Below the pieces are notes generated by a model that had not been told where the DNA came from, searched no databases, and saw only the letters and a program-made list of their open reading frames with translations. This document shows, piece by piece, positions 12,286 through 45,065 of a DNA stretch of 52,341 nucleotides. Source of the DNA: a virus. Every line of letters starts with the position of its first letter. Positions within the stretch are counted from its first letter, which is position 1. The stretch spans positions 1 through 52,341 of IMG/VR virus record IMGVR_UViG_3300042691_008087, one strand, 5' to 3'. The translations under genes were made by a program, and so were the position numbers.

Positions 12286-12582
12286 ATGAAACCCACATTT
12301 AAATGGTTTGTGTGGAATGGTCGTTGGGGGCAATACTATTCGATTTTAATCAAGGTTTCTGAAAGTCAGTGTGAAACTTGGTATCTCAATGAGGAAAATC
12401 AATTAGTACCGTATAACCGTGATTCCTCTGCTTGGCAAAATTTGTGGGATACATCTGCTGGAGAGGATGTAACTCAAATTACTGAAGAAGATGCAACTAG
12501 AATTCTTATAGGCGGTGTTAATTATGCACAACCAATCTACGAGCGTGATTTTAAGGCACGCTCCATGCCCAGAGTGCCGTAA
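12286..12582 (+). CDS. Small C-terminal-motif family protein (98 aa)
   Basis: It starts MKPTFKWFVWNGRW two bases after the preceding stop and is a paralogue of the preceding gene. The C-terminal motif is QITEEDATRILIGGVNYAQ. Its last 59 bases overlap the primase start in another frame. Confidence 0.75.
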   Translation: MKPTFKWFVWNGRWGQYYSILIKVSESQCETWYLNEENQLVPYNRDSSAWQNLWDTSAGEDVTQITEEDATRILIGGVNYAQPIYERDFKARSMPRVP

Positions 12583-13378
12583 AAATGGCAAAGATCGTAG
12601 CGGTAATAATCTTGGCGTGTATTCCGATCATGTCTACTGTTTTAGCTGCGGATTTTGGAAGGGCAAGTCAAGTTTTACGAGGAAGAAACCTGTTGCTGGC
12701 ACAGTACTTGCTCAACAGTCAAAAGGCTTATCGCTTCCTGATGATTCTACATTATCTCTGCCTCCTTGTGCTTATAATTGGTTAACCAAGTACATTACAG
12801 GTAAGGAGATCCGGGATAATAGATTTGTGTGGTCTGATAAGGGAATCCCATTCGGAACCAATATGTATTCCGAGTGTCTTATCATGCCTGTGTATGACCC
12901 CTACGGGAATCTCTTGCTGTATCAGGCAAGGCACTTCGGTGGTGATGATTCCCTTCCCAAGTACTTTACAAAAGGACGCCCCGATGAAGTATTACATATC
13001 CTTGGTAAGAATGAAGGCCCTGTCGTTCTGGTCGAAGACCTTATCTCCGCGATTAAAGTCTCGCGAGTTCAAAGATCTATGCCATTATTCGGCAGCAATC
13101 TTTCTCTATCTACTTGCGGTAGGTTGGCTACTATCACTGATTCACTCATTATATGGCTAGATAATGACAAACTACGAGAAGCCCATCGACTGGCTAGACG
13201 CTATTCCACCTTCTTCACTTCAATCGAAGTTATCTCCACTACCTCGGACCCTAAAGAAACGGAACCCGACGTTGTTCTTTCTTCAAGAGAAGTCTTCCCT
13301 TCCCGTAGTCAAAGCCAGAACTCCTTGGAATATGGTATTCAAACGTGTAGGGAAAAGGATTCATCTTATCTACGATAA
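12524..13378 (+). CDS. T7-type DNA primase (zinc finger and TOPRIM)
   Basis: From ATG 12524 the protein has 284 residues. Four cysteines (C15, C18, C39, C42; HAPCPEC and CFSCGF) form the template-reading zinc finger. The TOPRIM domain has the glutamate in VVLVEDL (171) and WLDND (211-215). It is a stand-alone primase; the helicase is a separate gene downstream, unlike the fused T7 gp4. A GTG at 12515 is an alternative start. The final 40 or so residues after DPKETEPDVVL are low-complexity and overlap another frame. Confidence 0.88.
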   Translation: MHNQSTSVILRHAPCPECRKNGKDRSGNNLGVYSDHVYCFSCGFWKGKSSFTRKKPVAGTVLAQQSKGLSLPDDSTLSLPPCAYNWLTKYITGKEIRDNRFVWSDKGIPFGTNMYSECLIMPVYDPYGNLLLYQARHFGGDDSLPKYFTKGRPDEVLHILGKNEGPVVLVEDLISAIKVSRVQRSMPLFGSNLSLSTCGRLATITDSLIIWLDNDKLREAHRLARRYSTFFTSIEVISTTSDPKETEPDVVLSSREVFPSRSQSQNSLEYGIQTCREKDSSYLR

Positions 13379-13551: not shown

Positions 13552-14817
13552 TTGAATAATGAATTAATCATCCTCAAGTCTTTTATCTTATCTAAAGATA
13601 AATACAATACATATAATACATATATTAATAGAGATTACTTCTTATCAGCTCTTCCAGAGCTGTTTAAGATACTAAGTATCATTGATCTAGTATATAAAGA
13701 TAATATTCCTGTTTCTTCTGTAGAGGATTTCATCGCCATCTTCTACAGCAAGTATCCCGGTCTCAAGAAAGGGGAGATGGCGGCTCTCGACACCGTATTT
13801 ACCCGCCTTAAGGCAGTAGACCTCTCAACCCCTGTGCTGGATATGGTTCTAGAAGACCATAGGAAGCGCGTAGAGGCTTCCAAACTGGCTGAGATAGCTT
13901 GGGATACCTCCGAAGGAAAGAAATCGGTTGTAGAGCTTCTGAACGCTTCGGAGAGATTCAAGGAAAGTATCGGGAATACTATCATCCAGCCAGAGACCGA
14001 TCTGTTTGTATCGGATGATCTGGAATCCCTGTTGGGGAATACGTATGGTCAACCGGGTATCAAATGGCGTCTCAAGACTCTCCGGGTAATGATGGGCAGT
14101 CTACGCAAGGGAGACTTCGGGTTTCTGTTTGCTCGCCCTGAAGTAGGGAAATCAACCTTCCTAGCGGATATGGGGTGTCATTTCGCTTCTCAACTGGATA
14201 GACCTTATCTACACCTTAACAATGAGGAATCCGGTGCCAAGATCAAGCTGCGGTACATTCAAGCGGCTCTAGGCAAGACTACTCGGGAGATATCCACGGA
14301 TGTAGCCGAGTCACAACGCAAGTATCTGGAAATTACCAAGAATAACGTAAAGATATACGACAGTGCATCCCTCTCCAAGCAGATGGTTGAGGATCTGTGT
14401 ATTAAACTTAATCCCGGAATGATTGTCATAGACTCCATCGACAAGATCAAGGGCTTCGAGGATGACCGGGATGATCTGGTGTACAAGCAGATTTACTCTT
14501 GGGCACGGGAGTTGGCAAAGCAGTATGGTCCGGTAATAGGAGTGTGCCACGCCAGTGCCAGTGGGGATGGCAAGAGATATCTGGAGATGGATGATGTAGC
14601 TTATGCCAAGACGGCTAAACAGGGGGAAGCTGATTGGATCCTCGGCATTGGTAGATCCTACGATACCAGTGATGAACCTTACCGATTCTTTCACCTTCCG
14701 AAGAATAAACTTATGGGAGATGAGGAGATGCAGGAGGAATTCAGGCATGGTAAAGTCAAGGTTCGTATTCTCCCCGATGTTGCCCAGTATGATGACGTGA
14801 TGTTCAGTGATGACTGA
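13552..14817 (+). CDS. DnaB/gp4-type replicative DNA helicase
   Basis: This 421-residue RecA-fold helicase drives fork unwinding. It has Walker A ARPEVGKST (194-202), Walker B MIVIDSID (290-297), and a downstream Q/H loop region (PVIGVCHASASGDG). The first 150 residues are a helical N-terminal domain. TTG at 13552 is the only suitable start, seven bases after AAAGGA; the first 150 bases are AT-rich. It follows the primase gene, as expected for a two-protein primosome. Confidence 0.9.
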   Translation: MNNELIILKSFILSKDKYNTYNTYINRDYFLSALPELFKILSIIDLVYKDNIPVSSVEDFIAIFYSKYPGLKKGEMAALDTVFTRLKAVDLSTPVLDMVLEDHRKRVEASKLAEIAWDTSEGKKSVVELLNASERFKESIGNTIIQPETDLFVSDDLESLLGNTYGQPGIKWRLKTLRVMMGSLRKGDFGFLFARPEVGKSTFLADMGCHFASQLDRPYLHLNNEESGAKIKLRYIQAALGKTTREISTDVAESQRKYLEITKNNVKIYDSASLSKQMVEDLCIKLNPGMIVIDSIDKIKGFEDDRDDLVYKQIYSWARELAKQYGPVIGVCHASASGDGKRYLEMDDVAYAKTAKQGEADWILGIGRSYDTSDEPYRFFHLPKNKLMGDEEMQEEFRHGKVKVRILPDVAQYDDVMFSDD

Positions 14818-15580: not shown

Positions 15581-15826
15581 ATGTCAAATGGCTATTACAA
15601 GAGAGTTTATAAAGGAATTCTTTCACACCTTGTTTTCGTAAAAGGAAATGAAAGACACTTCTATAAAATACAACATGTTGATTTTACTCCAACTGTAATA
15701 GACGATACCAAAGTTGCGGGGGACTCTTATACAATAAGTAATGATACATTACATACAAAATCCTTTTACAAACGAATTACTAGAGAGGAGTATATAAAAA
15801 TAAAAATCAAGGGTGGTGATCTGTAA
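15581..15826 (+). CDS. Small C-terminal-motif family protein (81 aa)
   Basis: It starts MSNGYYKRVYKG after GGGGTGAAG and ends YKRITREEYIKIKIKGGDL, matching the subtype with the 14829 gene (ITRNQYIRAKLTG). The stop overlaps the DNA polymerase start. It is very AT-rich next to a GC-richer polymerase gene. Confidence 0.7.
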   Translation: MSNGYYKRVYKGILSHLVFVKGNERHFYKIQHVDFTPTVIDDTKVAGDSYTISNDTLHTKSFYKRITREEYIKIKIKGGDL

Positions 15827-16971
15827 TGTCTGTTTTGGTTATTGATACTGAATGTTCCGGGGCTCTCCGAAACAAAGCTAACCCATTTGACAGGAGGAAT
15901 AAACTTGTTGCTATTGGCTATTTTAACGGCACTAACGTTACTATCCACTACCTGCGTAATAGCGACGCTTCTGAGATACTTCCAACTGATTTCTATAATC
16001 AATGCAAACAGGCTAATATTATTGTCGGTTTTAATCTTAAGTTTGATCTCCATTGGCTTCGTCGCTATGGCCTTGATCTAAGGGGTAAGAAACTATGGGA
16101 CTGTCAACTAGCAGAGTTTATTTTAAGCAACCAGAAAGACGCATATCCATCTTTGGACGCATCGTTACAAGCCCGTGGTCTACCTTTGAAATTAAACACT
16201 TTGAGTCAATACTTAGATTCAAACGTGGACGTGGACTGTATTCCGGAGGAAGAACTATTAGGATACCTAAAGGGAGACCTGACCTCAACCTATCAGCTTT
16301 ACGTAACCCAGAAATCTCTAATCAAACCGTACGAGAGTCTTTTCCGTTTACAGTGCAGTGACTTAGAAGTACTCGCTGATATGGAGTACAATGGTATGAA
16401 GTATAACCTAGCCAAGTCCAAGGAGCTTAGTGATGCTAGTGATGCTAGGGAAGCTGTCCTACTCTCTAATCTTAATAATCTCTGCAACTGCAATTATATC
16501 AATTGGGGTTCTAACGACCACGTATCTGCTGTTCTCTATGGTGGAAGAATCGTTATTGAAAAGAGAGTGCCTGTTGGTGTTTACAGAACGGGAAATAAAG
16601 CGGGTAGTCCCCGTTTCAAAATTGAAGAAGTAGAGTACCCATTTCCCCGTCTTGTAGATCCTCTTAAAGGGTCTGCTCTCAAGAAGGAAGGATTCTTCAG
16701 TGTTGGTGAAGATGTCCTCAGTGAACTAAAAGCCACCGGCACCGCTCGAAAGATCATTACCAACCTGCAACAGCTTGCCAAGATCCGTAAGGAGCGTAAC
16801 ACGTACTTCGATGGTATCCCTAAGAAGATGGCAGAACTGGAATGTACGGAATACGTACATGGGCAGATCAACCAGTGTGTAGTTGTCACTGGTAGAACTT
16901 CCTCTTCCAAACCTAACCTACAGAATATCCCGGAGGGTGGCCGTGAGTGTTTTGAATCGAGGTTTTCATGA
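15826..16971 (+). CDS. Family A DNA polymerase, N-terminal ORF (3'-5' exonuclease and thumb)
   Basis: This 381-residue ORF carries a complete proofreading domain: D7 and E9 (VIDTEC), N70 and D74 (FNLKFD), and Y147 and D151 (YLKGD), the three DEDDy exonuclease motifs. It then runs through the thumb to TGRTSSSKPNLQNIP near residue 355, the start of the palm of family A polymerases. It stops 14 residues later, exactly before motif A. Motifs A, B and C lie in a separate ORF at 17356-18078. Together the two would make a normal-sized enzyme of about 620 residues. Confidence 0.9.
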   Translation: MSVLVIDTECSGALRNKANPFDRRNKLVAIGYFNGTNVTIHYLRNSDASEILPTDFYNQCKQANIIVGFNLKFDLHWLRRYGLDLRGKKLWDCQLAEFILSNQKDAYPSLDASLQARGLPLKLNTLSQYLDSNVDVDCIPEEELLGYLKGDLTSTYQLYVTQKSLIKPYESLFRLQCSDLEVLADMEYNGMKYNLAKSKELSDASDAREAVLLSNLNNLCNCNYINWGSNDHVSAVLYGGRIVIEKRVPVGVYRTGNKAGSPRFKIEEVEYPFPRLVDPLKGSALKKEGFFSVGEDVLSELKATGTARKIITNLQQLAKIRKERNTYFDGIPKKMAELECTEYVHGQINQCVVVTGRTSSSKPNLQNIPEGGRECFESRFS

Positions 16972-17384
16972 TTGACCTGTCCGAGTGGGAGGGAGTATCC
17001 AAATTATATGATCCCTTGGTAAAACTAGCTTCCAATAACGTATCCTACAAGGATCTATATAATTGGTGGGAGATAGGAGATTTTGGATATTATTTGTTTC
17101 TATATGAAATGTATTCAGCGGCTCATAGAGCACGGGATGTTAATTTCCGAGTGATTCGGAGATGGAGTAATCGATGGGATTACCTGACCCTCTATCTACA
17201 AGAAGGTAAACACATTAACCATTTTAAAATATCATCTCTCCAACCAAGTCTAGGAGTTACTACCTTTATCTTCAAACTCCCTGAAAGCGTGATTCTTAAA
17301 GCCAAGATTGTCATGGGAGACAAGCTATCCGTTCCTACCGAACAAGAGTTTGACGATGCCATTAATCGAAGCAGACGCAAGTAA
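16968..17384 (+). CDS. ORF inserted in the DNA polymerase gene (138 aa, unknown)
   Basis: ATG 16968 overlaps the stop of the polymerase N-terminal ORF, and the ORF ends 29 bases into the C-terminal ORF. The product (MIDLSEWEGVSKLYDPLVKL onward) is aromatic-rich. It has no HNH, GIY-YIG or LAGLIDADG motif. Near its end, PESVILKAKIVMGDKL resembles the ITREEYIKIKIKGGDL end of the 15581 gene, so it may be a divergent member of the small-protein family. It interrupts the polymerase between the palm entry and motif A. Confidence 0.6.
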   Translation: MIDLSEWEGVSKLYDPLVKLASNNVSYKDLYNWWEIGDFGYYLFLYEMYSAAHRARDVNFRVIRRWSNRWDYLTLYLQEGKHINHFKISSLQPSLGVTTFIFKLPESVILKAKIVMGDKLSVPTEQEFDDAINRSRRK

Positions 17385-18078
17385 TCTGGAAGTGGTGTGT
17401 GCTGCATACCTATCCCAAGACAAGATACTTATGCAAGAGCTTTGGGATGGAGTCGATATCCACGGAGAGAACCAAAAAGCACTTGGGTTCCCTTCTGGAC
17501 CGGAGTACCGACTTATCGCCAAGATCTTTCAATTCCGTTTGATCTATGGCGGCTCCAAATTCAGCTACGCAATGGACCCCATGTTCAACAAGATCTCGGC
17601 AAAACCGGAATTTTGGGACTCCATTATCAGTAACTACTACCAGAAGTACAAGGGACTCCACGCATGGCACCAAGCCCTTATGCGGGGCGTAGAGAAGACG
17701 GGACGCTGGACTAGCCCTACCGGCAGGGTATACCGCTACGAGATCGTCAGGAAGGCTAATGGAAGCCGGGAATGGCCCCGTACAACCATCCTCAACTACC
17801 CGGTACAGGGGTTGGGAGCCGACTTGATGAGCATTGCCAGAGTATCAGCTTACAAACGACTAAGGGAACTGGAGAATCTTCTATTCATTAATACTGTACA
17901 TGATTCTATTCTATTAGACTTAAAGGAGTACAATGAAGAACTACTATCACAACTACGAGGCGTCTTTACGGACATTCCTCGGAACTTCGAGAAACTATTT
18001 GGGTCTAAGTTCAACCTTCCGATGAAATGCAAGATCAAAGTAGGCCCCAACTGGAAAGATATGAAGGAGATTGAATGA
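17356..18078 (+). CDS. Family A DNA polymerase, C-terminal ORF (palm and fingers)
   Basis: From ATG 17356 (MPLIEADASNLEVV) this 240-residue ORF holds motif A (EADASNLE, catalytic D7), motif B on the O helix (R52, K56, F60, Y64-G65), NYPVQGLGADL (148-158) and motif C VHD (181-183). It is catalytically complete only with the upstream ORF. The ribosome-binding site (AACAAGAG) is weak, so translation may be coupled to the inserted ORF it overlaps. Working as a two-subunit enzyme, or after RNA splicing, are both possible. Confidence 0.88.
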   Translation: MPLIEADASNLEVVCAAYLSQDKILMQELWDGVDIHGENQKALGFPSGPEYRLIAKIFQFRLIYGGSKFSYAMDPMFNKISAKPEFWDSIISNYYQKYKGLHAWHQALMRGVEKTGRWTSPTGRVYRYEIVRKANGSREWPRTTILNYPVQGLGADLMSIARVSAYKRLRELENLLFINTVHDSILLDLKEYNEELLSQLRGVFTDIPRNFEKLFGSKFNLPMKCKIKVGPNWKDMKEIE

Positions 18079-19461: not shown

Positions 19462-19929
19462 ATGCCAGAAATTACATTTGAATTCGAGATCGGAGATGTA
19501 GTCATGACCAAACCTGTCGTTGGGAGCAATACTTCCTATGATGTGGAAGTCTTCGACTACAAGAAGCAGATGCTTGTGGACCAGTGGAGAATTACCCAAC
19601 GAAGATATGTGGAAGAGATCAATGGGGCCGGTAAGATCCAGTATACCGGGAAGAATGTTGTCAATACAGATAAGAATAGTTCCTTCGATGAAGGATCCAT
19701 CATCCGGGTAGATGATTACCTAGCAAAGAAGGCTGTTATAGATTCTAATAAACCTAAACAACCTCATCCTGCTCTTATGCGAGCAACCCCAACAGCAAGT
19801 ACTCTACAACCGGGAATTAATCAAGTCTACCAATCTCTCTACGAGAGTGCTCTAAATGCAAAAGCTGGGGATTATAAATCCTTCGCAGAGATAATCAAGT
19901 CAGATTTAAAACTTGACAGCCCTAATTGA
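19462..19929 (+). CDS. Unknown 155-residue protein
   Basis: A good AAAGGAAA precedes ATG 19462. The first 90 residues (MPEITFEFEIGDVVMTKPVV onward) appear beta-rich, followed by a Pro/Gln linker and a helical tail. The stop overlaps the exonuclease start by 17 bases. No family is recognised. Confidence 0.65.
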   Translation: MPEITFEFEIGDVVMTKPVVGSNTSYDVEVFDYKKQMLVDQWRITQRRYVEEINGAGKIQYTGKNVVNTDKNSSFDEGSIIRVDDYLAKKAVIDSNKPKQPHPALMRATPTASTLQPGINQVYQSLYESALNAKAGDYKSFAEIIKSDLKLDSPN

Positions 19930-20641
19930 CGGAGATATCCTTGTCTATGTCGTCGGATACGCATCAGATGATGTCAACGAGCATCAAGCAACCTCACGAG
20001 TGTTGCGTACCTTCAACACCATTATCAACGCGACTCAAAGCAGCAATTACCGGATGTTTGTTTCTGACTCAAGGGGTAACTTTCGTAACAAGCTTTTTCC
20101 ACTTTACAAAGCCAACAGGACTGCTCCTAAGCCCGTACATTACCAACACATCACGAATGTCCTGCTTGACAAATTGGGTGCGGAAGTAACCTTCGGAGAA
20201 GAAGCTGACGACGCCTTGGGGATTCTTTCCTCTGCTTACAGTGATTCAATCATCGTAAGTATTGACAAGGATCTTCTACAGGTACCCGGACTCCACTACA
20301 ATTGGAGAACAAGTAAGTATACTCACATTACGGAGGCGGAAGGTAGGCATCGATTCTGGAGTCAAGTACTTACGGGAGATACAACAGACAACATAACCTC
20401 CCGTGTTGGGCTGAGTTGCCCTGGTGTCGGGGCAGTCAAAGCAGCCAAGATACTTGAGTGGTGCTCCACGAATGAGGAGTACTATCACAGCACCCGGTCT
20501 GCGTATAAGACCTACCTTCCCGATTATGACGATGTGGAGATTGATGCAAGATTGGAGTTAACAGCGCAGTTGGTACACATACGACGCAAAGCAGGACACA
20601 TTTGGAGTGTCAATGACATACAAGAGCAAATGGGAGGGTAG
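19913..20641 (+). CDS. 5'-3' exonuclease of the T7 gp6/FEN family
   Basis: This 242-residue protein has the acidic metal sites of the flap nuclease fold: IDGD near the N-terminus, EADD (about 97-100), SIDKDL (about 114-119) and GDTTDN (about 153-158). The helix-hairpin-helix GVGAVKAAKIL follows. It would remove RNA primers and degrade host DNA. The start is TTG at 19913, since no ATG lies upstream of IDGD in frame. It belongs with the adjacent endonuclease I. Confidence 0.88.
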   Translation: MTALIDGDILVYVVGYASDDVNEHQATSRVLRTFNTIINATQSSNYRMFVSDSRGNFRNKLFPLYKANRTAPKPVHYQHITNVLLDKLGAEVTFGEEADDALGILSSAYSDSIIVSIDKDLLQVPGLHYNWRTSKYTHITEAEGRHRFWSQVLTGDTTDNITSRVGLSCPGVGAVKAAKILEWCSTNEEYYHSTRSAYKTYLPDYDDVEIDARLELTAQLVHIRRKAGHIWSVNDIQEQMGG

Positions 20642-20981
20642 GGTAGCGGATAGACTCAAGGAACTAGGTTTACCAGTAAAGTACGAGAAGACAATCATCA
20701 GATACGTAGTCCCGGAGAGTCTGCATACCTATAAACCTGACTTCACTATTACCAAGAATGTATTCATAGAAGCTAAGGGGAAGTTCGATGCACAGGACCG
20801 GAAGAAGCATCTGCTGCTCCTTAAGCAACATCCGGACAAGGAGATATGGCTAGTATTCATGAATCCTCGGAATCGACTGAGCAAGAAGAGCAAGACTACA
20901 TATATGGAGTGGTGCCAAAAGAACGGTGTACGCTTTCTAAGCATGGAGCAACTAGGCTCCCTAAAAAGGGGGAATGGTTAA
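20613..20981 (+). CDS. Endonuclease I, Holliday-junction resolvase (T7 gp3-like)
   Basis: From ATG 20613 the protein has 122 residues (MTYKSKWEGRVADRLKELGL onward). The catalytic pattern of T7 endonuclease I is present: an early Glu, PDF with D43, and EAK with E53 and K55. It resolves branched replication intermediates before packaging. It overlaps the exonuclease gene by 29 bases, and its last 136 bases overlap a small-family gene. Confidence 0.9.
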   Translation: MTYKSKWEGRVADRLKELGLPVKYEKTIIRYVVPESLHTYKPDFTITKNVFIEAKGKFDAQDRKKHLLLLKQHPDKEIWLVFMNPRNRLSKKSKTTYMEWCQKNGVRFLSMEQLGSLKRGNG

Positions 20982-21538: not shown

Positions 21539-22096
21539 ATGCAACTAGACGCCCAAGACTTCCTACGCCTCGCAGAGAAAGCCAACACCATTGCCTTTTG
21601 GGATATTGAAGCTACAGGACTACGTGGAGACTACAACTCCATTCTTACCGTGTCAATCAAGCCCTACCAATCCAAACCAACCACGTTCTGTATCACCCAA
21701 CCCGGCCATGACCAGAAGGTAGTACGAGAAGCACGGGATTATCTGGAGTCTTTCGATTGTTGGGTTACGTATTATGGTAAGGGATTCGATATCAAGATGC
21801 TTGATACCCGGCTCCTTAAGTGGGGTATGATGCCTACTGCCAAGCGGCCTCACATTGACATGTACTACTCCCTCAAGTCTCATATCCTGACTGCAAGGCG
21901 TTCTCAAGGCCATCTACTCTCTTGGCTAGGCACCCCGGAAGAGAAGATGACTGTCGGTGCGGACATGTGGAATGAGATTATCCGTAACCCCCAGAAAGCC
22001 ATGAAGACGATGGTAGCTCGCTGTGAAAGCGACTGTGAAGGACTACAGGCCCTTTATGAGAAAACCAAGCATCTTATCCGGGACGTTAAACGCTAA
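21539..22096 (+). CDS. RNase H-fold 3'-5' exonuclease-like protein (YprB/DEDD type)
   Basis: This 185-residue protein has the DEDD motifs: D22 and E24 (FWDIEATG), a GKGFDIKMLD segment and a late ARCESDCEGL aspartate. YprB-type RNase H-like exonucleases share this layout. It would degrade DNA or RNA in replication or recombination. The start MQLDAQDF follows AAGGACAACC. Confidence 0.75.
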   Translation: MQLDAQDFLRLAEKANTIAFWDIEATGLRGDYNSILTVSIKPYQSKPTTFCITQPGHDQKVVREARDYLESFDCWVTYYGKGFDIKMLDTRLLKWGMMPTAKRPHIDMYYSLKSHILTARRSQGHLLSWLGTPEEKMTVGADMWNEIIRNPQKAMKTMVARCESDCEGLQALYEKTKHLIRDVKR

Positions 22097-26759: not shown

Positions 26760-26970
26760 AAAACAAAAATGTAATTACTTAGAACACGAAGCTTTAGATC
26801 GAACCCATGTCATTCTATGTATGGTGGATGATTTTTTGCTACAACACCCTTACATTTTAACAAAGAAGGAAGTAAAAGATTTAATAGTAGAAGCTTCTGG
26901 TAAACTAGCGATTGCCTATACATTACTAGGATCCTACACGTTACTAGGATCCTCCTCGGAGGAGGATTAA
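26737..26970 (+). CDS. Unknown 77-residue last gene of the early strand
   Basis: ATG 26737 (MQKKTKAKKQKCNYLEHEAL) follows GGAGC. A basic start leads to a helical body and a C-terminal repeat YTLLGSYTLLGSSSEED. The repeat is encoded by a tandem 18-base unit, and the last codons form a perfect hairpin. It overlaps the opposing ejection protein gene by 4 bases. No membrane segment is clear; a link to lysis is suggested only by location. Confidence 0.6.
   Translation: MQKKTKAKKQKCNYLEHEALDRTHVILCMVDDFLLQHPYILTKKEVKDLIVEASGKLAIAYTLLGSYTLLGSSSEED
26923..26953 (+). repeat. Tandem repeat TTACTAGGATCCT, 18-base period
   Basis: TTACTAGGATCCT occurs at 26923-26935 and again at 26941-26953, separated by ACACG, encoding (Y/T)LLGS twice at the end of the last rightward gene. 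Confidence 0.7.
26949..26967. terminator. Hairpin between convergent early and late operons
   Basis: ATCCTCCTC (26949-26957) and GAGGAGGAT (26959-26967) form a perfect inverted repeat around one G where the two convergent operons meet. It could stop transcripts from both sides. No T-run follows, so the assignment is tentative. Confidence 0.5.
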
Positions 26971-29900
26971 CGTATCATCTCGTTGAACCGCTCTTGCTCC
27001 ATCCTACGGGAGGTACTGCGTCCCCTTGCCCTGCGATCATCTTCACCAATAACACGATTCCTGTAAGCTTCCTTGACTGCTTGATTAAGCTCCCGCCCGG
27101 AGTATCCTAACTCCACGGCTTTGTCAACCAGCTTGTCGAAGTCACCTTTGCCGTGCTGCAAGTTGTCTACAATCAGGTCTACTACCTTTTGGCGCTCCTC
27201 GGAGATAGCATCGGAAGTTTTCTTTGCTTCTCTGAAGGAGCGTTCCTTTCTCTCCTGCTCAAGCGTATTCCCTACGATAACATGGTTTAACTGTTCGTAC
27301 GTATCCTTATCCGTGATAACTCCTGCATAGCCTCTCTTGGAAGCACTTGGCCGGGGGAGATTACTATCACGCCTGATCCAATCCTGTCCATCCATACCTA
27401 ACGTATCAAAGCTGTCAAGCAGACGATCCACAATTGGGGGCATGACGTTCTTCAGTTTGGACTTCATTTCCCCCGAAGTAACATCCTTACCTAGTGCTTG
27501 CATGAACATGGTGCTAAGTAGATCGTATACGTCATATCCGAACTTAAGGCCGGGAGCACTCTTAAGGAAACCCCCTTCCCCTACGAATCCTTGAGGGTTC
27601 TTTAGAATTTCCGGGAACTTCAGTTCCGGAGACATAAGGCCACCAGCAATGTGGGATCCCCGGGGATCTATAAGCCTCGTAGAGGCATCCAGAAACCCGA
27701 ACACGGCAGCGTCAGGGGCATTCTTGAGTACGATCTCACTAAGGCTCTCCTTGGATTTACGAGGCCCTAGGAGTTGCTTCCCTAGGAAGCTATCTCGGAA
27801 GATGTTCCACATCAAATCGATGAAGGTCCAAGGCATAGCTCCTAGGATACCCGCAAAGGCGGAAGTAGAGACCATCATGTTGATAAGTGGGATCATCTTG
27901 CGAGGATCCTTGAAGCCCGCTGGACTGAATGCTTCTCGGAGCAGGGTTCCTACAGTGCTGAAGAACCAATTCTGGAATGACCAGAGAGGTTTGATAGCCG
28001 TACCGATCATCCCCAGATTCTCGATGATTGCTGCCTTGTCCTGTTTCTTGTAGTTTACCATGATATCATTGGCAATACTCTCTGCAGTAGTATAGAGTTC
28101 TTTTCCTTTGAGACCAGCTTGCTCCGCAAAAGAGAACGCCATGCTGTGTGCATTGAGACGAGAGAAAGACTCTGCCTTCTTGGAGAGTATAAGACCCCCG
28201 GCATAGTCGACTACTTGAGAAGCTAGTTTACTGTGTAAGAAATTAGCCCCCTCTTCTTGAATGAAGGTAGGATCAATCTCCCCCCTAGGTACTGCAAACT
28301 CATCCCTATACTTGGCAAAGGCCGTGTCCTTGGAGAACATGTCCTTATACCCATTAAGCATGGAACTAACTACGTCCCCCTTGAATCCCAGATTATATTT
28401 CCAATGTGAAAGGATGGGGGAAGCAAATACTGTAGATTGAGCTAGGTTGCCTACGGCAAATTTAGCATTCCAGATAAGCAGGGTGGAAGTCATCCACATC
28501 TGGTTAAATCTTTCGACAACTTGCCGTACTCCGGGGGCGTGTTTAATAGGAGTACGCCCCACTACAGAGGTCCAGATTTGATTGGTCCAATCTTCCAAGC
28601 CCTTTGCTATATCCCCACCAGCCCCCCGGGCACGATTAAGGTAGTTCTGTAGATACGTAGACAGAACCGGAGGAATCCTCTCATCTGCACGGATCTTCTC
28701 GATAGCAGCAGTGATTTTTAAATTCTCTGCATATCTATACATCCCATCGATGGTGTCCTCATACGTACGTATGAAGTCCGATCCTACCTTGTTAATAAAA
28801 CGACCACCCTCAGTAGCGAATTCACCTCCCGCTACGTTACGACGGTACTTGCTATGGACAGCCCAACCACGACCCCCAACGACTTCTTGGGCAATCTTTT
28901 GAAGCATTGCCCTGCGAGGATCACTGGCTTGCATTGTATCAAGAATGTGCTCAATGACGGAAGTATTGGCATTGTACTTATTCCCCCGAAGTTCCGGGGC
29001 TTCCATCTCGACAACATACTTTCCTCCAGCCTTTTCCTGCATTGTAGCGGCGGCTTTGTCTGCTTCTGCTTGAGTACGAAACCTGTGTGACCACTCAGAA
29101 ACACCTTTCTCATTTACCAACCGGGCAACCCAAGGACCTTCACCGTGGAAGGTATGAAAATATCCAATCTTGTGAGCAACTGGAGTAAGTCCTACAGATG
29201 CACGAGCTTCGTTAACATAATCCAGAGCTTTATTATAAGAATCTGCTACTACCTTGTAGGTATCGGCTGCTACTTGGGACAGTCCCCTAGCCATGAGTTC
29301 ACTCTCACGGGGAACTTTCTTTCCACCATACTCATTAACAGCCTCAAGGAACTTACTCATCTGAGCTTCATTCCCCTTTAATTTATTTAATCTGGGAATA
29401 GGTGCATTAGGATCAACAATCTTGGTACTTTCCAACCGTCCAAACTTGAATGAAGCCCCTTCCTTGAGAAGTTCTGCTTGCATAGCAGACATATTACGGG
29501 CATTGGCAGCAAACTCATAGGCCCACTTAACCATGGCATTGCCGGTCTCGGTATATAGTTTGGAGATACTTCCAATCTTACCCAGACCTTGTACGAAAGG
29601 ACCCCTAGGAAGTTCTTCAATCTTTCCACCAATATCATCAAGAAACTTGTCAGGCATACGGGTTTCTCCCGTAGCAGCAGCAACGATATCCTTACGGGAA
29701 GGGGGAATCGTTGGTTTGGAATAAGGTACACTTGATTTGTCAAGTAGATCAGCAAGGGGTTGAGTAAGCTTACCATCAGCCCCAAAGAGGCCATTACTGA
29801 CTGCTTCATTATAAAGATTACGAGCAGACCTGACGGTTTCTCCACCGGGGTGCTCAAAGGATTTAACTACGGTAGCAGAGGCATCAAAAGCAACCTTCCC

Positions 29901-32123
29901 AAGATTATCCAGACCACCTTTCCACCCAATCATATTTGCTACAGCTGCAAGCCAAGCATCCCAAGCAGTACGAATCTTTCCACTGGAAGTCATACCACTC
30001 TTTACTTGGCTTACTAAAGCCCCTACGTGGGCTCTCTCATATGGAGTCAGGGAAAGATTGGATAGAAGTCTACGAAACTCCGGATTAGCCATTGTCTCGG
30101 CAATGAATTCCAGTTCATTACTGAAACCATAACGTACTCCTTCCTTACTTCGAGTACCTGTTTTAGCCATATCCGCTTTCCAAGCCTTCTCATAGATATA
30201 GCGAACGACTCGGGACTCTGGTTGGTTATAGAAGATACGTTGCCAATCAGCTACAATCGCGTGAATTCCTTCGTGAAGGAAGGTCTTGATTGGGCTTGGA
30301 AGGGCTTCCATTTTGTCACCACGAAGAAATTCCCGGACAAGAATAGCCCCATCTGCACTCCTGTACATCCCGGAGACATTGGCACCGCCCTTAAGTACAG
30401 TTCCCTTGTTAAGAGTCTCTTGATCTACTACCTTGAATACAATCCCTGCATTCTCAAGAGTCTTGGCAATAAGTCTGGAGACTGCTTTCTCTACACCAGT
30501 AAGATGTGGAGACTTGGCCAACTCCGTAAAAACTGTTTCTGCACGAGGATCTTTGGCGATAACCCCGTACATTTGGTCTGCTACTTGAGTTCTTTTCCAA
30601 ACAGCATCGGAGTTATCTAGAACTTTTTCTGAAATATCAGCAAGAATATTCTCACGGCTGCGAGAAGCCAGACGACCAGTCTCATTAGCTTCAGCAATAG
30701 CTCTAGCTACATCCGGATCTACTCGTTTGTAGATACCCGCTTCCGCTTCCGCAATCTTAGCCGCCCGGTTGGCTTGATCCTCTGCTATTTTAACTACTTC
30801 ATAGGGAACCCCCTCCCTTTCAGTTAATGCTTGCTGACGTGCCCTAGCAGCTTGCTCTGGAGCAGTATCGTAAATAACTTCTTCGGGAGTATATTTAAGA
30901 CCCTCAACTCTGTCCCCTAACTTGGGTTGCAGATCAAGACTGCCCTGCCTAGGAGGTTCAGGAGCCCTTTCAGGGGGTGCAGTACGGCGCTGAAGATCCA
31001 AAGCGCCCTGTGGGTCCGTAAAAGGATCGTATGGGGTGCTTCTTTGCTGTTCATCAGGGTACCGCCATTGATAAGCAGTTCTATCCCTACCAGTACCCAC
31101 CATGTCCGAAGGAAGTCTTTCAGCAGGAGCAGGAGTAGCGGTTAGATCCGCTTCTCGCTTAAGGGGATCCGTGGCAAGAGGACCAACCCGCATACCGGGT
31201 TTAGTGCCTTGCTCTACTCCGGGAGCATTAGGATCTCGTTCTGCTTTGTCAAGATCAACTCTCTTACCTTGAGGAAGATCACCAACCCGTCCCTCTTCAA
31301 TAGTTTTAGCAGCTTGGGTTTTAGGAACACTGTATGTAGGATCATAGGCACCGGGATCGGCTTTAGTGTACTCTAGTTCTCCACCTTGTCTCCCTTGGAA
31401 TTCATCGTTACCCATTGCCCTACGGGCTTCTTCACGGGCTTTGGCTTCTTGTATGGATTGTGTTTCATTTACACGAGCAGTTTCTTGGGCGGTTCTGGTT
31501 GCCTTTGCTCTGGAGGCAAGAGGAAGTACTGCCCCTGCCCCTAATAAACCAGCATTAGCTACAGCCTCCGTACCTGTACGTACAAAGGCTTTGGCCTTTT
31601 CTCCCAAGATATCTGGAACGTAGTTCTCAGCCCCTTCTCCTAATTTACCTATTCCCTTGGAGATAAGTTCTCCTACGTGTTCTTCAGTAGCACGAGCACC
31701 CCCAAAGATATCGTCAGAAGGTACGCCAATATTAGTATATGGGATCTTGGGTGCTCTTCCCCACTCGGCTCCGGATTGGATTGTTTTTACACCTTCCGAG
31801 ATAGCCTTGTCGAGACCTTGCCCCATAAGAAGCCTTCCAGCCGCTTCAGGGACAGCCAGAGCGCCCCCACCGATAGAACCTAACATACCCCCAAGGCCCC
31901 GTACTTGGCCTTCTACAAAAGCTGGTACAAAGCCCGCAGCTTCTTTTAATGCACCCCCGGAAGTAGGATCAATGAGAGGTTTACCCCCCACACGGTCCGC
32001 TTGTGAGGAGACTTGGGCAAAAGACTTCTTGGCGTAAGCCAATACTTCTTCTTGTGAGGCCCCTTCCGGGGCTGTCACCTCATATCGCTTACCATCGGGA
32101 GAAGTTATTTCATAGCGTGGCAT
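26967..32123 (-). CDS. Giant ejection/polyvalent virion protein with zincin motif (1718 aa)
   Basis: The last gene of the late operon. It begins MPRYEITSPDGKRYEVTAPE, a small N-terminal domain found in large phage virion proteins. Residues 60-560 are Gly/Ala- and then Pro/Glu-rich linkers. HEGIH (617-621) with a downstream EFIAETMANPEF forms a zincin-like metallopeptidase site. The C-terminal third has hydrophobic helices (WNAKFAVGNLAQS, WSFQNWFFSTVGTL) like the LPD38-type large polyvalent domains. In short-tailed phages such proteins are carried in the head and injected with the DNA, so peptidoglycan or host-protein processing at entry is a fair guess. Confidence 0.8.
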   Translation of the reverse strand: MPRYEITSPDGKRYEVTAPEGASQEEVLAYAKKSFAQVSSQADRVGGKPLIDPTSGGALKEAAGFVPAFVEGQVRGLGGMLGSIGGGALAVPEAAGRLLMGQGLDKAISEGVKTIQSGAEWGRAPKIPYTNIGVPSDDIFGGARATEEHVGELISKGIGKLGEGAENYVPDILGEKAKAFVRTGTEAVANAGLLGAGAVLPLASRAKATRTAQETARVNETQSIQEAKAREEARRAMGNDEFQGRQGGELEYTKADPGAYDPTYSVPKTQAAKTIEEGRVGDLPQGKRVDLDKAERDPNAPGVEQGTKPGMRVGPLATDPLKREADLTATPAPAERLPSDMVGTGRDRTAYQWRYPDEQQRSTPYDPFTDPQGALDLQRRTAPPERAPEPPRQGSLDLQPKLGDRVEGLKYTPEEVIYDTAPEQAARARQQALTEREGVPYEVVKIAEDQANRAAKIAEAEAGIYKRVDPDVARAIAEANETGRLASRSRENILADISEKVLDNSDAVWKRTQVADQMYGVIAKDPRAETVFTELAKSPHLTGVEKAVSRLIAKTLENAGIVFKVVDQETLNKGTVLKGGANVSGMYRSADGAILVREFLRGDKMEALPSPIKTFLHEGIHAIVADWQRIFYNQPESRVVRYIYEKAWKADMAKTGTRSKEGVRYGFSNELEFIAETMANPEFRRLLSNLSLTPYERAHVGALVSQVKSGMTSSGKIRTAWDAWLAAVANMIGWKGGLDNLGKVAFDASATVVKSFEHPGGETVRSARNLYNEAVSNGLFGADGKLTQPLADLLDKSSVPYSKPTIPPSRKDIVAAATGETRMPDKFLDDIGGKIEELPRGPFVQGLGKIGSISKLYTETGNAMVKWAYEFAANARNMSAMQAELLKEGASFKFGRLESTKIVDPNAPIPRLNKLKGNEAQMSKFLEAVNEYGGKKVPRESELMARGLSQVAADTYKVVADSYNKALDYVNEARASVGLTPVAHKIGYFHTFHGEGPWVARLVNEKGVSEWSHRFRTQAEADKAAATMQEKAGGKYVVEMEAPELRGNKYNANTSVIEHILDTMQASDPRRAMLQKIAQEVVGGRGWAVHSKYRRNVAGGEFATEGGRFINKVGSDFIRTYEDTIDGMYRYAENLKITAAIEKIRADERIPPVLSTYLQNYLNRARGAGGDIAKGLEDWTNQIWTSVVGRTPIKHAPGVRQVVERFNQMWMTSTLLIWNAKFAVGNLAQSTVFASPILSHWKYNLGFKGDVVSSMLNGYKDMFSKDTAFAKYRDEFAVPRGEIDPTFIQEEGANFLHSKLASQVVDYAGGLILSKKAESFSRLNAHSMAFSFAEQAGLKGKELYTTAESIANDIMVNYKKQDKAAIIENLGMIGTAIKPLWSFQNWFFSTVGTLLREAFSPAGFKDPRKMIPLINMMVSTSAFAGILGAMPWTFIDLMWNIFRDSFLGKQLLGPRKSKESLSEIVLKNAPDAAVFGFLDASTRLIDPRGSHIAGGLMSPELKFPEILKNPQGFVGEGGFLKSAPGLKFGYDVYDLLSTMFMQALGKDVTSGEMKSKLKNVMPPIVDRLLDSFDTLGMDGQDWIRRDSNLPRPSASKRGYAGVITDKDTYEQLNHVIVGNTLEQERKERSFREAKKTSDAISEERQKVVDLIVDNLQHGKGDFDKLVDKAVELGYSGRELNQAVKEAYRNRVIGEDDRRARGRSTSRRMEQERFNEMIR

Positions 32124-43322: not shown

Positions 43323-44585
43323 TTATGAAACTACCTGTGGTTGAGTTAAACCTTGATACCAATCCGACACCTTCATCACATCCAGCAACCCTGCGGCCCT
43401 ATGCCGTGCCAACAGATCAATGAACCCGGTAAAGTCGGCTTCGTTCGTTTCGACCCCCGTCGCCCCACTCGGCACGATGTCGTGGAACATCGCGACATAA
43501 GTCCCGCCGTACTTCAGCAGGTTAGTGATGTTAGTCGTGGCTTGGGCAAGACTCAGGGATGCACCGTGATTCCCGATCTTCAGGTTCACGATGTTGTCGG
43601 TGTAGGTTCCGGCAGACGGTTGATTGATCCTGCACGTCGTTGCCGACGCACTGTCCACTCCGCGCATGACCTTGACGCCTCTCCGCGCCAAAGCATCCAG
43701 CGCCGTTTGATCGTAAAGTCCCTGCACGAACGGATGGTAGATGAACGGATTCGTGATTCCCCACGTCCGCAATTGCGCCGCAGCCGCGTCGTATTCAGCC
43801 ATGTAAGCCTTCAGGCCGGATGACGCGAACGATGTATTTGTGACGTTGTGCACTTGCACGTCATGCCCAGCAACTTGCAGAGTCAGCAATTCCGCAGCTG
43901 TGCAGTACGTGCTGTCATTGGTTCCAATCTGCTCGGTGCCGACGCCGAACGTCGCGAGCATATTGTTCGTGAGCAGATACGGTGCCGCAGTATCGACCCA
44001 GGTATCGGAGGCGTCGTCAAACGTGATGATGACGCACGGGCGAGACTTCGGCGCAATCGAGAAAGAATCGACCCAGAACCGGCACGCCTCGCCAGACTTC
44101 GGTACTACTCTGATCTTCACACTCGCCAGAGTGTCTGAGCCATAGGTGAACGTGTTCACACTGGTGATATGCGAGTTCAGATCGAACGTGATCGGGCCGT
44201 TCCGATTGTTCACGTTGGACGATTGCACCGTCAGGTTGCGTTGCAGGTAGCGCGTATAGCTTGCCGTACCTGCGTACAGCTGCACGTCAGCGACTTTCTG
44301 CCAGTCATCGAACCACAGCCGAAACGCTATCGTTTCCCCATCGGGCCACTTGGCCACACTAAGCCCGGTGTGGATCTGCACTTCCGTGTTGGTGTTCCCG
44401 GCAGGACAGTCCACGCGAAGCCGGGTAGCGCCGAACGGAGATGCCGCGTCGTATGTGTGCGTCGCCGCAGTGCCGGTGTCAGACTTGGTGACGTTCGTGG
44501 AGTTGGAGAACGTCTTGATGGTCTGTGCATTAGGCGAGCCATGTGCTTGCGCGTATCCACTAGGCCACGCCGCGAACGTCGTCAT
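43323..44585 (-). CDS. Tail protein with degenerate NodB-type polysaccharide deacetylase domain
   Basis: Residues 1-190 of 420 form a beta-rich carbohydrate-binding-like domain (MTTFAAWPSGYAQAHGSPNA onward). After it come VIITFDDASDTW (motif 1, with the metal Asp), GHDVQVHNVTN (motif 2) and AMFHDIVP (motif 5) of CE4 deacetylases. In motif 2 the second metal His of HxxxH is Asn, so activity may be lost or changed. The whole gene is GC-rich, unlike its flanks, and looks acquired. It may trim host surface glycans. Confidence 0.72.
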   Translation of the reverse strand: MTTFAAWPSGYAQAHGSPNAQTIKTFSNSTNVTKSDTGTAATHTYDAASPFGATRLRVDCPAGNTNTEVQIHTGLSVAKWPDGETIAFRLWFDDWQKVADVQLYAGTASYTRYLQRNLTVQSSNVNNRNGPITFDLNSHITSVNTFTYGSDTLASVKIRVVPKSGEACRFWVDSFSIAPKSRPCVIITFDDASDTWVDTAAPYLLTNNMLATFGVGTEQIGTNDSTYCTAAELLTLQVAGHDVQVHNVTNTSFASSGLKAYMAEYDAAAAQLRTWGITNPFIYHPFVQGLYDQTALDALARRGVKVMRGVDSASATTCRINQPSAGTYTDNIVNLKIGNHGASLSLAQATTNITNLLKYGGTYVAMFHDIVPSGATGVETNEADFTGFIDLLARHRAAGLLDVMKVSDWYQGLTQPQVVS

Positions 44586-44588
44586 GGC

Positions 44589-45065
44589 TTACACCGCACG
44601 CCAGAGCACGGCGACGAGGTTGTCGTCGCCCGCGTTGCTACAGGTGATCGTCAGTGCGCCCGCCGAGTTGATCGCGCCAAGGAAGTCCTTGAACCCGACC
44701 GATCCAGCCGGCAGCGTGTACGTTTGTGCCGTTCCGTCCGAGTCAGCAAAGCCGGTGATCGCACACGTTCCGGTCAGGGCCGTGTGAATCAGAATGCCCA
44801 TCAGGTGCGTATCGTTCGCAGCACCGGCCCCGATGGTCACGGCCGTTGTCTTGCTGATAATCGACAGATTGCACTCCTGCCGCACCGGCAGGTATGCCGC
44901 CGTCGCGCTCGACGGGTTGCGCAGGCCGGTGATGTTGCCTTGTTCTGTTACATGCAAAGCACCACTTGTTTCTTTAATAGGTTCATGTCTTGGCTTAGAA
45001 CCAGATCCGGTACCCGTATCAAGAGTAGTGGATTGTCCAAGAATACTTACATAATCGCTTGCCAT
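44589..45065 (-). CDS. Mosaic structural protein (158 aa)
   Basis: GAGGAG precedes the ATG. The first 43 codons (MASDYVSILGQSTTLDTGTG onward) are in AT-rich DNA; from about 44937 down the DNA is GC-rich and encodes a beta-rich domain. This is a mid-gene recombination joint. It is the first gene after the terminator at 45094-45131. Virion role inferred. Confidence 0.62.
   Translation of the reverse strand: MASDYVSILGQSTTLDTGTGSGSKPRHEPIKETSGALHVTEQGNITGLRNPSSATAAYLPVRQECNLSIISKTTAVTIGAGAANDTHLMGILIHTALTGTCAITGFADSDGTAQTYTLPAGSVGFKDFLGAINSAGALTITCSNAGDDNLVAVLWRAV

Follow-up and report, generated by a model that had tools for sequence, protein, structure and literature searches.

Split DNA polymerases of the clade treated here were published in 2023 for the OM43 phages MEP401 and MEP402 and for most of the related metagenomic genomes, with the possibility of an intron left open (PMC10580990). 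These two phages share with the present locus the family A clade, the position of the break and a small ORF without assigned function between the halves (PMC10580990). Alcaligenes phage vB_Af_QDWS535 (OK172329) has the same break, but its halves overlap by 1 nt and have no ORF between them. In the Vibrio phage ICP2 group (Zobellviridae, Icepovirus) a family A polymerase is also split just before motif A; the break there is about 14 residues earlier, and what separates the halves is an HNH gene, a different ORF or just 9 nt. A more distant parallel is gene 43A/43B of the Aeromonas phages 25 and 44RR, a two-chain replicative polymerase with an insert, which differs in being of family B and in having a seg endonuclease or an untranslated spacer as the insert (PMC2988022). 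The 43A and 43B chains of phage 25, a T4-like phage, are reported to co-purify with polymerase activity, so that an assembly of this kind can work (PMC2988022).

The window, that is the whole stretch of DNA analysed, is a virus record of 52,341 bases with genes for primase, helicase, exonuclease, endonuclease, ribonucleotide reductase, portal and terminase. Its DNA polymerase is encoded by two ORFs, unlike the single polypeptide that is typical of family A, although not defining for it (Table 1). The order primase, helicase, PolN, ORF, PolC, exonuclease and endonuclease is similar in MEP401 and MEP402, with identities to the window of about 38-39% for PolN and 48-49% for PolC. The ORF between the halves in these two phages has 77 amino acids and is unrelated to ORF138 of the window. 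A second exonuclease-like gene (21539-22096; PHROG 403, DNA polymerase exonuclease subunit, 9.1e-16) is found in the window although PolN has a proofreading domain.

Table 1. Genes of the replication module around the split polymerase, in window positions.
Feature	Position	Strand	Evidence and remarks
Primase	12515..13378	+	PHROG 47, 4.2e-22; upstream of the polymerase, same replication module
DnaB-like helicase	13552..14817	+	PHROG 19, 9.8e-50; upstream of the polymerase
PolN (381 aa), N-terminal chain of family A DNA polymerase	15826..16971	+	DEDDy 3'-5' exonuclease, thumb, TGRTSSSKPNLQNIP, final pre-motif-A strand ...ECFESRFS
ORF138 (138 aa), orphan coding ORF	16968..17384	+	start overlaps the PolN stop as ATGA; last 29 nt lie within PolC
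PolC (240 aa from ATG 17356), C-terminal chain, palm and fingers	17356..18078	+	motifs A, B and C; starts M-PLIEADAS
Exonuclease	19913..20641	+	PHROG 107, 5e-53; downstream of the polymerase, same module
Endonuclease I / resolvase-type gene	20607..20981	+	PHROG 945, 2.6e-40; downstream

The ORF coordinates agree with the sequence-only reading of three overlapping ORFs, the overlaps being 4 nt for PolN/ORF138 and 29 nt for ORF138/PolC. That reading had also placed a full DEDDy exonuclease on the N-terminal ORF and motifs A, B and C on the C-terminal one, and both assignments stand: D7/E9, N70/D74 and Y147/D151 of the exonuclease do not vary among 29 aligned sequences, and PolC has intact motifs A, B and C, the last reading VHDS. 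Together with TGRxSS..PNLQN these motifs make up the family A signatures present in the window. PolN matches DNA_pol_A in Pfam (5e-15) and PHROGs 9556/17 (DNA polymerase), while its match to DNA_pol_A_exo1 (6.6e-4) is below Pfam's cut-off. PolC matches DNA_pol_A at profile positions 154-381 (1.4e-28) and aligns with the palm and fingers of Klenow/Taq. An in-frame TTG at 17308 precedes the PolC ATG, and the start in the relatives is at the ATG position. PolN and PolC share one frame, with eight in-frame stops and 384 nt between them. An AF2 model of PolN made with 29 sequences had a pLDDT of 82.5, with the exonuclease and thumb confidently modelled, and Foldseek matched it to Bst, E. coli and phage Pol I structures. 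Residues 341-381 (palm) had low confidence when PolN was modelled alone (block means about 35-69), as expected for the last 40 residues if PolC were to complete the palm.

In the alignment PolN covers Klenow to about chain position 374, its last residues being placed by eye, and PolC begins at about 378. This corresponds to about residues 697-700 of E. coli Pol I, as derived from a Klenow fragment start at residue 324. The break falls in a short turn that links the PNLQNIP...SRF strand to the strand of motif A, so that only a few residues are missing and almost no conserved sequence is lost. Its position, after SR[Y/F] and ahead of the motif A strand, is that of the MEP401-type split polymerase clade.

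From a scan of IMG/VR driven by an alignment, the best 80 of 272 matches were taken as loci; scans of the same collection with single queries (PolC of QDWS535, PolC of ICP2, and PolN and PolC of the window) returned no relatives. Both halves were readable in 82 sequences, comprising 76 IMG/VR contigs, five phage records and the window. Three loci were handled apart, namely L001 (short N fragment), L004 and L083, and for the tree the N half of L001 was read from L007. All 82 sequences have two ORFs with the same break just before motif A, and rare fused members of the clade may exist, given that the loci are the best 80 of the IMG/VR matches. Comparison with a relative holding an intact gene had been proposed as a way to define the ends of the insert, but every readable close relative is already split at the same site, including the closest annotated ones (MEP401, MEP402, two Manatee Spring phages and QDWS535).

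The ends of the halves are nearly constant and the distance between them is not. Almost every N half stops soon after SR[Y/F]; L005 and L074/L076 are the exceptions and extend further. The C halves begin five or six residues ahead of the motif A aspartate. The gap is -17 nt in 28 of the 82 sequences, -7 in five, -1 in one and up to 3598 nt in the rest; 48 of the 82 have intergenic sequence, of up to 3.6 kb, between the halves. In the 28 L020-type loci the 17 nt overlap joins halves in different frames (for example L020 5998-6014), and the overlap of the L028 type is 7 nt. Over all loci the relative frames +0, +1 and +2 are found in 15, 35 and 32 cases. Apparent frame disturbances in or near a half of L004, L052 and L083 are read as sequencing errors or decay.

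The contents of the gap are unrelated between loci and range from nothing (the L020 and L028 types and QDWS535) to a small acidic ORF of 55-77 amino acids, an HNH endonuclease, a seven-gene methyltransferase block and other ORFs. The small acidic ORF (EEAYFYHTLxDF...) is conserved and lies between the halves in about 30 loci, among them L009-L022, L030, L038-L055, MEP401 gp14 and, weakly, L001. Among the fetched loci it is located only in or beside the PolN-PolC gap; it has no family match and is a candidate polymerase accessory protein or stable passenger. One of the Manatee Spring phages has a 68-aa ORF between the halves; in the other this space is 3.6 kb long and holds seven genes, one of them for a cytosine methyltransferase. 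An insertion hotspot between PolN and PolC was considered and rejected, since gaps above 90 nt are no commoner there, with 30 of 64, than at the junction of helicase and PolN, with 42 of 64, and the boundary thus behaves as an ordinary gene junction. Because the gap contents are unrelated or absent and such gaps are at least as common at helicase-PolN, the halves resemble any pair of adjacent genes.

ORF138 is no chance frame: when its bases were shuffled, 0.015% of the shuffles had a forward frame open throughout, and only its own frame has a positive codon score and a codon usage that fits the genes of the phage. It has no match to a family in Pfam, PHROGs, NCBIfam or PDB, in line with the earlier observation that no nuclease motif is seen in it. 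No relatives were found by tblastn against phages and plasmids, in the IMG/VR scan, in PDB or in the fetched loci, and compared with the latter it resembles no other gap content. Its single-sequence AF2 model had a pLDDT of 45, too low for structure search. ORF138 is a real but orphan, lineage-specific gene at the polymerase junction, and a passenger role is favoured. It would have come to lie between two genes that were separate beforehand, and short overlaps join it to both. The earlier claim that the polymerase had been split by this 138-codon ORF does not hold, as relatives without an ORF there are split at the same point. A different role is imaginable, if rather improbable: with an obligate two-chain state, the junction protein (ORF138 in the window and, in many relatives, the small acidic ORF) might be a third subunit or assembly factor, a three-part enzyme having evolved at the same spot with different partners.

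The phylogenetic tree of 52 rows placed all 41 rows with this break in one group (SH-aLRT 100). The window grouped with the MEP401-type split clade (SH-aLRT 100 and 99). Long, deep branches lead to the window and L005, and the window and QDWS535 form the deepest branches of the group. Over the joined halves the window has an identity of 45% or less to any tree row; it is a deep, divergent member of the published split clade, with an orphan insert. The dN/dS ratio was 0.05-0.29 for both halves (10 pairs), and on this measure both are under purifying selection. Single-ORF polymerases are those of HMO-2011, CRP-738, HTVC033P, Stm18, KBC54, RHEph02, ParMal1 and H4/4. Judged from the same break point combined with a variable gap, all three frames and unrelated contents, the split is ancestral to the clade, old and fixed in the lineage, and not a recent breakage by ORF138.

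In the ICP2 group the break is at another position. The N halves end with PNLQNISN and the C halves start with MSDIKRCIISRF. An HNH-type ORF lies between the halves in ICP2, 2011_A and MJW and an 86-aa ORF in VP41s3, while only 9 nt with a TAA separate the halves in 2013_A and Saratov-15. ICP2 was grouped with intact polymerases (SH-aLRT 99), and a tree uniting all splits was rejected (p-AU 0.0068), a value to be taken with caution in view of the long branches and of a group named after the first tree had been seen. The window-type and ICP2 splits are, on these trees, probably two independent events. NC_015158 (L095 1317-3885) gives the ICP2 polymerase as a join of two pieces spanning the HNH gene; splicing is argued against by 2013_A and Saratov-15, in which the halves are 9 nt apart with a TAA, and the comparison suggests that the joined annotation should be re-examined.

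Taken together, the shared break, the free gap and frame, the selection on both halves and the intact catalytic residues indicate that the family A replicative polymerase very probably consists of two separate polypeptides that assemble non-covalently. PolN and PolC would be translated separately, PolN supplying the proofreading exonuclease, the thumb and the first palm strand(s) and PolC the remainder of the palm plus the fingers, and with them the three catalytic motifs, and the two chains would assemble into one active polymerase. The sequence-only reading, in which no essential motif was missing and the enzyme could work as two chains, is thereby strengthened by comparative evidence; the history it implied, of a gene broken by the 138-codon ORF, is not, since every readable close relative is split at the same site, many of them with halves that overlap slightly or lie a few bases apart.

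That ORF138 lies inside a self-splicing intron, with the polymerase frames joined in the mRNA, is very unlikely. Introns are known in phage polymerase genes, one was raised as a possibility for the OM43 phages (PMC10580990) and the ICP2 record carries the join described above, but Rfam gave no match to a group I or II intron model, its only match in the window, ICP2 and 12 further relatives being one tRNA, and no intron catalytic RNA core was found by Rfam even in a permissive search of 16800-17600. The whole gap is covered by ORF138, same-break relatives with overlaps of 1, 7 or 17 nt have nothing to splice, the gap contents are unrelated among relatives, and ICP2_2013_A has only 9 nt and a TAA in place of the HNH gene of ICP2. 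The comparison thus argues against the intron reading left open for the published OM43 phages (PMC10580990). An intein was rejected, the PolN frame not being open through the insert. Programmed frameshifting or stop-codon readthrough yielding one full-length chain is still harder to accept: a shift could fuse the halves in the L020 and L028 types, and a ribosomal frameshift could therefore fuse the chains in genomes with overlapping halves, but the window has eight stops and 384 nt to pass, and the use of all three frames and the intergenic sequence in 48 of the 82 sequences do not fit such a mechanism. No intron, intein or frameshift can explain the split in general.

A homing endonuclease or other mobile insertion may have created the split, with ORF138 as a degenerate or unrecognised descendant. 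This historical explanation, compatible with two working chains, is less than likely. In its favour, HNH-type ORFs lie between the halves in L083 (PHROG 3322, 7.7e-29) and in ICP2 relatives, and the break adjoins the best-conserved motifs, which homing elements usually target. Against it, ORF138 has no nuclease family match, and same-break relatives without an insert cannot tell whether one was lost. A key gene found split often points to a pseudogene or an assembly error, but a decaying polymerase or a misassembly is hardly credible here: 82 sequences share the break, dN/dS is far below 1 for PolN and PolC alike, and the catalytic residues are kept. The phage may use another polymerase, though selection on both halves argues against decay.

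The comparison argues for a large group of phages whose replicative polymerase is severed in the palm immediately ahead of motif A, and for at least two origins of such cuts close to this site. It also makes the assembly of a family A enzyme that is split in nature directly testable.

Elsewhere in the window the minus strand carries a 1718-aa ORF without a Pfam match (26967-32123), a polysaccharide deacetylase domain protein among other minus-strand genes (43323-44585; Pfam 2.1e-8) and a lone tRNA-Ile (GAT) gene (44980-45055).
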